Source: Peptococcaceae bacterium BICA1-7 (lineage in GTDB: Bacteria > Bacillota > Desulfotomaculia > Desulfotomaculales > Desulfocucumaceae). Taken from it: DNA of 64,000 nt. The stretch's first letter is position 1, and every line of letters starts with the position of its first letter. A program made the translations under genes and the position numbers. The stretch is taken from contig JUEB01000024.1 in assembly GCA_000802095.1 (NCBI GenBank), forward strand, positions 124,001 through 188,000. Reading direction: 5' to 3'. The notes beneath the pieces were generated by a model. That model did no database searches and was not told where the DNA came from. It saw only the letters and a list, made by a program, of their open reading frames with translations. Positions 45,027-48,296 of this stretch are shown here, piece by piece.

Positions 45027-45110
45027 CTACTGTTCATCCTCTTCGTGATCATGGTCGATGCTTTCCAGACCAATTCCCTTGAGAATTTCATCGATAAGCT
45101 CTTTCGTCAT
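45027..45110 (-). CDS. candidate 27-aa small protein with acidic His-rich tail
   Basis: MTKELIDEILKGIGLESIDH then DHEEDEQ. ATG 45110 has a GAGGGGGG site ~6 bp upstream. A promoter on the same strand (-35 TTGACA at 45206-45201, -10 TATAAT at 45184-45179, 16 bp apart) lies about 70 bases upstream. The amphipathic helix plus HDHEEDE tail suggests a metal-binding or regulatory peptide. Signals are good but homology is unknown. Confidence 0.45.
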   Translation of the reverse strand: MTKELIDEILKGIGLESIDHDHEEDEQ

Positions 45111-45346: not shown

Positions 45347-45380
45347 ACTGTTATAACTAAATGTTTCATATAAAATCTGT

Positions 45381-45790
45381 GAAGGAGAAAAGTAGGCCGG
45401 AAACAACCCTTAAGGGAGAAGGCGTCACCGACTGTAAGCGCTTTCAGGGAATGCCTTGCTGAAGTTCTCTCCGGAGATGCAGGCTGAAGCTGTTTTCTAA
45501 ACCGGAAACGGTGTGTAGGCTGGGCCGTAATTCCCGCGTTAAAGGGAAGGGGTATCGGATATTTCCCGTACCTTGCCGAGTGGGCGCGCTGCTATTTAAT
45601 ACACAGCGGGCCAATGGGGTGGTAACACGGATAGCAATGCTTTTCGTCCCTAGAAGAGGGGTGAAAGGTTTTTTTGTTTTTCCGGGGATTTTTTTCCGGT
45701 AGCTGTAAAGGGGGCTCTCTGTATGGGGGCCAATAGGGGTGGTACCACGGAAGCCTGCTTTCGTCCCGGTGGCGGAAGCAGGCTTATTAA
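45381..45790 (+). promoter_or_regulatory. T-box leader with two antiterminator/terminator modules, likely tRNA-Phe
   Basis: Stem I base GGAGA...TCTCC runs 45384-45472. The 5' loop-E AGTA (45391-45394) faces GAA (45461-45463), followed by specifier TTC at 45465-45467 (Phe). The first T-box motif GGGGTGGTAACACGG (45616-45630) precedes a stem ending in GGTTTTTTTG (45640-45680). A second, better motif AGGGGTGGTACCACGG (45735-45750) precedes the terminator AAGCCTGCTT/AAGCAGGCTT (45751-45786). Uncharged tRNA would allow read-through into aroF-pheA. The second module has no Stem I of its own (a semi-tandem T-box). Confidence 0.85.
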
Positions 45791-46124
45791 ATGAATGGGG
45801 ACACACCAAAAGCGGAAAGGGGACACACCTGCTGAAGATAAGGTATTCCTTTATGGACAGGAATGTCCCCGATCTGTTCTGGCTCTGTGGGTCGGAGGAA
45901 TGTCCCCGATCGGGATGGCGGGGATACACCAAATAAGGAATGCGTTAGGGATAGTGTCACCGATCGGTTGGCTTTGGGAGTGTCCTGAATGGGGGGTGGT
46001 TTGATGAGTGATGATGGCTTTTTTAGAAACATACACTGTCACTATGGTGAACTGATAATTATTAAGATAAGAGGAGGTGTTCCGGCCCGCCCGGTGTGTG
46101 GTTAGTAGGGGGGCTGGGGAAAAT
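45791..46124 (+). other. spacer between T-box and aroF
   Basis: Carries four GGGGACA/TGTCCCC motifs and three GTCcCCGATC motifs (45798-45975), forming possible short hairpins. AAGAGGAGG (46068-46076) is a good ribosome site but the only start at the right distance (GTG 46077) overlaps it; the true aroF start is probably 46125. The repeats have no known function. Confidence 0.4.
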
Positions 46125-47138
46125 ATGATTATTGTAATGGAAATCAACTGCCCGGAGGAACATGTGGATGCAGTGGTGAGAAAACTGGAGCAGAATGGGC
46201 TGCAGGCACACCTGATCAGAGGCGCAAAAAGATTGGTTATAGGCGCGGTGGGAGACAAGGGCTCTATACAGTCCTTGGGTATTGAGGGAATGCCCGGAGT
46301 GATGAGCGCAGTGCCCATCATGAAGCCCTTCAAGCTTGTGAGCAGGGAGGCCCGGGGTGAGAACTCGGTGGTCAGGGTTGGCAATGTTGATATAGGCGGT
46401 AGCCAAATTGCACTGATGGCGGGCCCCTGTGCGGTGGAAACAGCGGACCAGATGTATGCGGCAGCTTCGGCGGTCAAAGCTGCCGGGGCTGGTGTTTTGA
46501 GAGGGGGGGCCTTCAAGCCCAGGACTTCTCCTTACAGCTTCCAGGGGCTGGAGGAGGAGGGCCTTAAAATGATGTCCGAGGCCGCCAAAAAATTCGGCCT
46601 GGCCACGGTTACCGAGGTAATAGACCTTGAGAGCCTCGATAAGGCCTTGAAATATGTTGACATGGTCCAGGTAGGGGCCAGAAACATGCAGAATTTCAGG
46701 CTGCTGCAGGCGGTGGGCCGGGCTGGGCTACCGGTGCTGCTTAAAAGGGGACTTTCGGCCACCATTGAGGAGTGGCTGATGGCTGCAGAGTATATAGCCT
46801 CCGAGGGTAATATCGATATAGTGCTCTGTGAAAGAGGTATAAGGACTTTCGAGAGCTATACCAGGAACACCCTGGACCTCAGCGCGGTGCCCCTTGTAAA
46901 GAGCCTTTCCCACCTTCCGGTGGTGGTGGACCCCAGCCATGCCACCGGGATAAGAGCTCTGGTGGGTCCCATGAGCCTGGCGGCAGTGGCCGCCGGGGCG
47001 GATGGGCTGATTGTGGAGGTGCACCCTGATCCACAGAGGGCTTTGTGTGACGGAAAGCAGTCTCTCAGCCCCGGAGAATTCAGCAGGGTAGCCGGAGATT
47101 TGAAGGCGGTTGCCGCAGCTGTCGGGCGGTCAGCCTAA
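46125..47138 (+). CDS. aroF: 3-deoxy-7-phosphoheptulonate synthase (DAHP synthase, type Ibeta)
   Basis: Catalyses PEP + erythrose-4-phosphate to DAHP, the entry to the shikimate pathway. 337 aa. An N-terminal ferredoxin-like regulatory domain (about 1-70) precedes the KDO8P/DAHP barrel (MAGPCAVET, GGAFKPRTSPYSFQG, QVGARNMQNFRLL, KRGLSATIEEWL, VDPSHATG). The FL domain is typical of type I-beta enzymes allosterically controlled by aromatic acids. Located behind the T-box and 15 bp from pheA. Confidence 0.93.
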   Translation: MIIVMEINCPEEHVDAVVRKLEQNGLQAHLIRGAKRLVIGAVGDKGSIQSLGIEGMPGVMSAVPIMKPFKLVSREARGENSVVRVGNVDIGGSQIALMAGPCAVETADQMYAAASAVKAAGAGVLRGGAFKPRTSPYSFQGLEEEGLKMMSEAAKKFGLATVTEVIDLESLDKALKYVDMVQVGARNMQNFRLLQAVGRAGLPVLLKRGLSATIEEWLMAAEYIASEGNIDIVLCERGIRTFESYTRNTLDLSAVPLVKSLSHLPVVVDPSHATGIRALVGPMSLAAVAAGADGLIVEVHPDPQRALCDGKQSLSPGEFSRVAGDLKAVAAAVGRSA

Positions 47139-47153
47139 GGCGGGGGTGCATTT

Positions 47154-48296
47154 ATGAAAAAGATAGGGTATTTGGGGCCTTCCGGAACTTTTACCGAGGC
47201 CGCCACCAGAAAATACTCTGGTAGAGAACCGGTGGAGCTGGTCTGCTGCCGAAGTTTTCCCCAGATAGTGTCAGATGTTAAAAGCGGCCTTTTGGACGAA
47301 GGCGTGGTTCCCCTGGAAAACTCCACTGAAGGGGCTGTTAGCCAGATACTGGATTTAATGGCCCAGGAGGAAGGGGTTATGTTCCGGGGGGAAATAGTGT
47401 TAAGTGTGCGGCATAACCTTCTGGTCAGGCCGGGAACCGAAATCAGTGAGATAAAAAAAGTTCTGTCACATCCTCAGGCCCTGGCCCAGTGCAGGGGCTA
47501 TCTCTCCCGGGAGCTGCCCGGGGTGGAGATAGAGGAAACCACCAGCACTGCCCGGGCGGCCAGCATTGTGGCAGGCTCAGCCGGGCCGTGGGCAGCCATT
47601 GGCACCTACCTGGCTGCCGGTAATTACAGCCTGAAATTAGCCGTGGCCGACATCCAGGACAGCAGCCAGAACGCCACCCGGTTTATAGTGCTGGGTAAGA
47701 GTGACGCGGGCCCGGGGAATAACTGCCGGACCTCAATAATAGTGGAGGCCAGGGATCGCCCGGGTGCTCTGTACGGTATACTGAGGGAGTTTGCCCTAAG
47801 AGATATAAGCCTTACCCGGATAGAGTCCAGGCCTGTCAAAAAAAGGCTGGGGCAGTACATGTTTTTTATAGACATGGATGGGCACCGCACTGACCGCAAA
47901 GTAGGGGAGGCCCTGGAGGCTGTTGCCCGAAACGCATACTACCTGAGGATACTGGGTTCCTACCCTGCGGACAGAAGTCTTGCGCCCCCTGAGGAGCCTT
48001 CTCCGGCACAGGGTATAACCCTGGAGGAGGCCAGGGCGGAGATAGACATGGTGGACAGCCAGATAGTGGAGCTTATCGGAATGCGTACCAGGCTGGTGGA
48101 AAAGATTGCCGGTGTTAAAAGTCCCGGGAGAATACGGGATGAGGCCAGGGAGGAAGAGGTGCTGAGGAGGGTTCGTTCTTTGGCCGTGGCTAAGGGGGTT
48201 GACCCGGAAATGATTGAAAGTGTGTACAGGATTATGATCACAGAGTATGTGAAAATGCAGAAGAGAAGGGTACAGAGTAGGATGTCCGGGTGCTAA
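47154..48296 (+). CDS. pheA: prephenate dehydratase - ACT - chorismate mutase fusion
   Basis: 380 aa. Residues 1-185 are the dehydratase (YLGPSGTFTEAATRKY, PLENSTEGAV, catalytic TRF at 175-177). Residues ~192-270 are the ACT domain (EARDRPGALYGILREFA, ESRP at 224-227), which senses Phe. Residues ~287-375 are an AroQ chorismate mutase (LEEARAEIDMVDSQIVELIG, MRTRLVEKIAGVKS). The mutase is C-terminal, opposite to the E. coli PheA order. It makes phenylpyruvate from chorismate. Same operon as aroF. Confidence 0.92.
   Translation: MKKIGYLGPSGTFTEAATRKYSGREPVELVCCRSFPQIVSDVKSGLLDEGVVPLENSTEGAVSQILDLMAQEEGVMFRGEIVLSVRHNLLVRPGTEISEIKKVLSHPQALAQCRGYLSRELPGVEIEETTSTARAASIVAGSAGPWAAIGTYLAAGNYSLKLAVADIQDSSQNATRFIVLGKSDAGPGNNCRTSIIVEARDRPGALYGILREFALRDISLTRIESRPVKKRLGQYMFFIDMDGHRTDRKVGEALEAVARNAYYLRILGSYPADRSLAPPEEPSPAQGITLEEARAEIDMVDSQIVELIGMRTRLVEKIAGVKSPGRIRDEAREEEVLRRVRSLAVAKGVDPEMIESVYRIMITEYVKMQKRRVQSRMSGC

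Follow-up and report, generated by a model that had tools for sequence, protein, structure and literature searches.

A repeated docking strand in a T-box leader with one Stem I and two antiterminator modules, predicted to read tRNA-Phe upstream of aroF-pheA

How can a single Stem I serve two T-box modules that lie one behind the other in the same leader? T-boxes with duplicated terminator–antiterminator elements were reportedly described by Vitreschak and colleagues in RNA in 2008. T-boxes of the partially tandem kind are known, and their mode of action has been described as unknown (PMC7583486). The leader upstream of aroF in Peptococcaceae bacterium BICA1-7 raises the question in a concrete form. 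It lies in a window of 64,000 nt, the whole stretch of DNA analysed here (contig JUEB01000024.1, positions 124,001–188,000 of the forward strand, assembly GCA_000802095.1); coordinates below are those of the window, and features lie on its forward (+) strand unless stated otherwise.

The leader is a member of the known class of partially tandem, or semi-tandem, T-boxes. A covariance-model search of each module, as an earlier note made from the sequence alone had proposed, was run with E-value reporting and gave an end-to-end match to RF00230 at 45370–45654 (model positions 1–219, 83.4 bits, E 2.1e-18), followed by a second, partial match at 45704–45768 that covers model positions 155–216 only (31.6 bits, E 4.7e-5). 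A default Rfam scan of the window reported no T-box, because the 83.4 bits of this leader fall below the curated cut-off of 93 bits; of the 14 full-length T-boxes that this genome contains, four others also score too low for it. The T-box cores, at 45616 and 45736, are 120 nt apart, and a pattern of two cores spaced by about that distance matched once in the window and never in 100 shuffles (0 expected). The search thus bore out the claim of the earlier note that one Stem I is followed by two modules about 120 nt apart. A complete Stem I ahead of the second module had been named there as the observation that would speak against this reading; between the modules we found neither a model match to a second Stem I nor room for one, so that objection fails. 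The ~55 nt from the U-tract of the first terminator to the second core are taken up entirely by Stem III of module 2 and the sequence leading into it.

As judged from model matches and local folding, the leader is made up of one decoding domain (Stem I, Stem II, and Stem IIA/B) and two complete predicted discriminators, each a Stem III with an antiterminator. Stem I (45376–45478) has distal loops AGGGA and UGUAA and the AGTA/GAA loop E that had been pointed out before (45391–45394 and 45461–45463). Stem II and Stem IIA/B follow (45480–45541; GCGTTA, with CGTTA at 45537–45541), and then come a linker hairpin, which we call the docking hairpin (45549–45574, –10.1 kcal/mol), and Stem III of module 1 (45583–45612), placed by the RF00230 match and folding. 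Antiterminator 1 (45616–45651, bulge UGGUAAC at 45620–45626) overlaps the stem of terminator 1 (45639–45669), which makes the two hairpins mutually exclusive, and a U-tract extends terminator 1 to 45681. In module 2, the partial RF00230 match and folding place Stem III at 45713–45731; antiterminator 2 (45737–45767, bulge UGGUACC at 45740–45746) overlaps a terminator-like hairpin (45751–45785, about –22 to –25 kcal/mol), whose U-tract is poor. The proposal of two antiterminator/terminator modules thus stands as regards the overlapping hairpin pair, which is present in both, but a true U-tract is absent from the second terminator (TTATTAAATGAAT). For the structure assignment we set aside the minimum-energy fold of the entire leader, which mixes domains.

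Specifier, tRNA, and downstream genes support the prediction that this leader is a tRNA-Phe-reading T-box of aroF–pheA, as had been supposed. First, three T-boxes of this genome with genes that can be recognised by sequence, those of leuS (CUC), valS (GUC), and ileS (AUC), served to set the register of GAA, linker, and specifier; applied to the aroF leader, this register gives UUC at 45465–45467. A Val or other register was ruled out by the same calibration. Second, the host tRNA-Phe has anticodon GAA, A73, and a 3′ end, ACCA, that is complementary to the UGGU of both bulges. Third, the downstream genes fit Phe control: aroF (46125–47138, start placed at the ATG at 46125) encodes a DAHP synthase (NF006421), and pheA (47154–48296) encodes a prephenate dehydratase that also has a chorismate mutase domain. 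A second semi-tandem leader of this genome (L008) also carries UUC and lies upstream of a sodium/solute symporter gene. Upstream of the aroF T-box, a divergent small ORF, MTKELIDEILKGIGLESIDHDHEEDEQ (45027–45110, minus strand), is conserved beside the aroF leader in four relatives (G001, G002, G004, and G007).

The earlier note was mistaken in regarding the U that follows the specifier (45468) as unusual. A pyrimidine stands at this position in 64 of 72 distinct, related UUC semi-tandem leaders (U 41, C 23, A 4, G 4), and U is the class norm. A review gives a 2.4-fold defect for A19U in N. farcinica ileS, compared with loss of binding in glyQS (PMC7583486); a pyrimidine after the specifier costs little in T-boxes with Stem II. 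Strict pairing of the +1 U with an opposite A was considered and rejected: the opposite base is usually A even when C is at +1, and therefore there is no clean covariation at this position.

The main clue to how one Stem I might serve both modules, which the first reading of the sequence had missed, is a repeated docking strand. The hairpin between Stem IIA/B and the first Stem III consists of a 5′ strand, GGUAUCGGA, and a 3′ strand, UCCCGUACC; in the window these are GGTATCGGA (45551–45559) and TTTCCCGTACC (45562–45572). The 3′ strand is duplicated before module 2, and the 5′ strand is single. Copy 2 in the window, TTCCGGTAGC (45694–45703), matches TCCCGTACC at 7 of 9 positions. Among the 72 Phe leaders, the 5′ strand was found in 66, once each and 13–15 nt from CGTTA, and in none of the 72 between the modules; a copy 2 with at least 7 of 9 matches precedes the second Stem III in 57 of these 66. 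In both modules the T-box core follows the docking strand at a similar distance (median 34 nt in module 1, 31 nt in module 2). We believe this arrangement to be new.

Comparison of the leaders supports the proposal that the one 5′ strand can pair with the 3′ strand before either module. First, the two sides of the long-range helix covary. Positions 2–9 of the 5′ strand, outside the conserved core, were compared with the sequence before copy 2, and leaders were permuted 2000 times; within-leader pairing was 4.92 of 8 versus 3.75 after permutation (z 6.7, n=52, 0 of 2000 permutations), although such tests overstate independence because the leaders are related. With greedy dereplication, pairing was 5.03 versus 3.81 under 85% identity (z 5.4, n=33, 0 of 2000) and 4.72 versus 3.56 under 80% identity (z 3.7, n=18, 0 of 2000); in the most dereplicated set, under 75% identity, n was 6 and z only ~2. 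Single linkage at 72% identity merged nearly all leaders and was uninformative. When the register was slid, pairing dropped to the permuted level. Second, complementarity of copy 2 merely through its resemblance to copy 1 was rejected, as similarity between the copies is barely raised: 70 of 2000 permutations reach the observed likeness at n=52 and 245 of 2000 at n=33. Simple duplication therefore does not explain the pairing of the 5′ strand with copy 2. Third, in four further UUC leaders (L115, L124, L148, and L153) the core of the 5′ strand is GAUAU in place of GGUAU; all four have GUAUC as copy 1, and three of them have it as copy 2 as well, the fourth having GUAUU there. Finally, in energies that omit the closing cost of the ~100 nt loop, 55 of 56 leaders favour the copy-2 duplex over hairpin 1 (median –15.4 versus –7.4 kcal/mol). 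In the window, the duplex of 45549–45566 with 45682–45704 has –13.8 kcal/mol and a competing local hairpin, CCGGGGATTTTTTTCCGG, –8.5 kcal/mol; copy 2 is partly degenerate here, with one G-G mismatch and C-C replaced by C-G.

The best explanation of this leader, and in our judgment the probable one, is that Stem I and Stem II, loaded with tRNA, re-dock onto module 2 by strand exchange. Uncharged tRNA-Phe would bind Stem I. With the docking strand paired to copy 1, the tRNA would be held beside antiterminator 1, and polymerase would pass terminator 1. Newly transcribed copy 2 would then invade the docking hairpin and loop out module 1. The second Stem III and antiterminator 2 would thereby come to lie next to the tRNA already bound, and the free 3′ end of one and the same tRNA would be tested twice. 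We infer the hand-off itself from the pattern of pairing. The wider proposal, that semi-tandem T-boxes in general use one 5′ and two 3′ strands in this exchange so that the aminoacylation of the same tRNA is tested twice, with the second test translational in some lineages, seems to us an evenly balanced one.

The terminators bear on what module 2 might do apart from a hand-off. Across the class, the first terminator has a median hairpin energy of –15.5 kcal/mol and a median U-tract score of 4.94; for the second terminator the medians are –22.8 kcal/mol and 4.56. That the second hairpin is usually the stronger would be expected of a leak stopper, a module that eliminates transcripts which got past terminator 1 in the absence of tRNA while leaving the induced level almost as it is. 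This reading, which overlaps with the re-docking model, is possible, if somewhat doubtful; leak stopping alone leaves the docking strands unexplained, and in this genome the second U-tract is poor. Whereas terminator 1 of the window is normal (–12.0 kcal/mol, U-tract score 5.75), its second hairpin is strong (–21.6 kcal/mol) with a U-tract score of 2.63 against the class median of 4.56, and an independent terminator scan of the window found the first terminator and not the second. Directly after the second hairpin, moreover, a dispersed repeat begins in slightly varied form; a related string, GGAATGGGGACACACC, occurs in 43 exact copies in the genome. Given the poor U-tract and the repeat behind it, termination at the second decision may be weak in this genome, and the sharper response to phenylalanine starvation that the earlier note expected from two decisions in series is a conjecture.

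From the same degraded U-tract, the degenerate copy 2, and the repeat inserted between module 2 and aroF, one could argue that module 2 is a decaying remnant in this genome and that regulation is exerted by module 1 only. We consider this rather unlikely, as bulge, Stem III, and the A2 helix are intact, hairpin 2 is near-perfect, and the sister genome G002, in which the dispersed repeat also stands right after the second terminator, retains module 2 with a TTTTCT tail. Another relative (G001) has an intact TTTTTTATTTT tract at this place. The repeat in the window spans ~45793–45990, between hairpin 2 and aroF, and contains GGGGACACACC and AATGTCCCCGATC motifs.

The string GGAATGGGGACACACC also occurs beside the leuS T-box of this genome, a locus with a peculiarity of its own. 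Nested in Stem III of that T-box, between the two arms of the stem, is an entire gene for tRNA-Ala(GGC) whose CCA is encoded (L002:1501–1797; G000:C29:196569–196865). The same nesting is seen at loci of 14 relatives (L267–L279 and L281), some of them before an AMP-ligase-like gene instead of leuS. It is possibly more unusual than the semi-tandem aroF leader.

It is improbable, in our view, that the two modules decide independently and in series. In that case each antiterminator would be stabilised by a separate tRNA event, through rebinding or a second uncharged tRNA, the docking helix would not be exchanged, and the probabilities of the two decisions would multiply to give read-through. In favour of this reading, the modules are both complete, conserved, and alike in their UGGU bulges, and digital, pseudo-cooperative behaviour has been proposed for fully tandem T-boxes (PMC12452182); yet this leader has a single Stem I, and independent decisions would leave unexplained both the repeated 3′ docking strand and its covariation with a single 5′ strand. 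The long-range helix could have a role other than tRNA hand-off, since covariation indicates pairing and not purpose, but that it merely closes off module 1 as an inert domain after read-through appears quite unlikely to us, as the distance from copy 2 to its Stem III is the same as that from copy 1 to the first Stem III, which is what re-docking predicts.

The leader was compared with known T-box systems. Like canonical transcriptional T-boxes (RF00230), it has a Stem I that carries loop E and the specifier, Stem II, Stem IIA/B, Stem III, a UGGN bulge, and an antiterminator/terminator switch; unlike them, it has an additional discriminator to which no Stem I of its own belongs, and it scores under the curated cut-off. 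With fully tandem T-boxes (trp, ilv-leu, and thrS in Bacillota; PMC12452182) it shares two serial switches for one amino acid, whereas those carry a complete Stem I per switch. Its single Stem I and two discriminator/terminator modules are those of partially tandem T-boxes, to which our analysis adds the repeated, covarying docking strand, an asymmetric bulge (AAC, then ACC), the pyrimidine after the specifier, and, in one genus, an apparently translational second module.

That last feature appears in aroF leaders of a Desulfotomaculum-like genus (L193, L194, L232, L234, L235, and L069), which have no usual second terminator. In all six, a CGUCCCU strand of antiterminator 2 pairs with a GGAGGGA Shine-Dalgarno sequence before the start codon. 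These leaders appear to be hybrids, with a transcriptional first switch and a translational second one in which module 2 would hide the ribosome-binding site of aroF. Four U follow the Shine-Dalgarno hairpin in L069, L193, and L235, where it might still act as a terminator; none follow it in L194, L232, and L234. Translational T-boxes (ileS of Actinobacteria; PMC7583486) likewise have a CGUCCC strand for which the Shine-Dalgarno sequence is an alternative partner. Module 2 of L193, L194, L232, and L234 shares this feature, but there the translational module sits behind a transcriptional one. The window is not of this type: sequestration of a Shine-Dalgarno sequence by its module 2 is absent, and aroF starts ~340 nt past hairpin 2.

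The distribution of the two-core pattern marks the semi-tandem layout as what is, on this evidence, an old class that is conserved in many genera. Of the 31 relatives, 21 carry the pattern, and a reversed control pattern had no match; among the 24 Phe T-boxes upstream of aroF in these relatives, about 22 have two modules and two (in G004 and G025) have one. A scan of genome contigs found the pattern in many further Bacillota; tandem-repeat noise from other phyla was removed by accepting only matches accompanied by further T-box features. Specifiers for Tyr, Trp, Leu, or Pro were seen in other semi-tandem leaders, and further ones precede genes that, judged by their N-termini, resemble serC, serA, ilvD, ilvH, or trpE. 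Three antiterminator cores in series were seen in Paenibacillus alvei (L074:4429–4616) and in a Veillonellaceae MAG (L123:1546–1741). Within the class, the A2 helices of both antiterminators covary. The bulge is UGGU-AAC in module 1 of 41 of the 72 Phe leaders and UGGUACC in module 2 of 62, with AAC in module 2 of 8 and discordant pairs at 33:0; the AAC bulge is also present in single T-boxes, and we therefore claim no function for its enrichment in module 1. Seven Phe semi-tandem T-boxes (L176, L179, L187, L229–L231, and L233) precede candidate phenylacetate-CoA ligase genes (N-termini YWDAYHETMSR...), which suggests that Phe may be made from aryl acids there.

For partially tandem T-boxes, the docking strand with its covariation offers a concrete candidate mechanism that can be tested by compensatory mutants. 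The hybrid leaders suggest, in turn, that one tRNA sensor may control transcription first and translation second.
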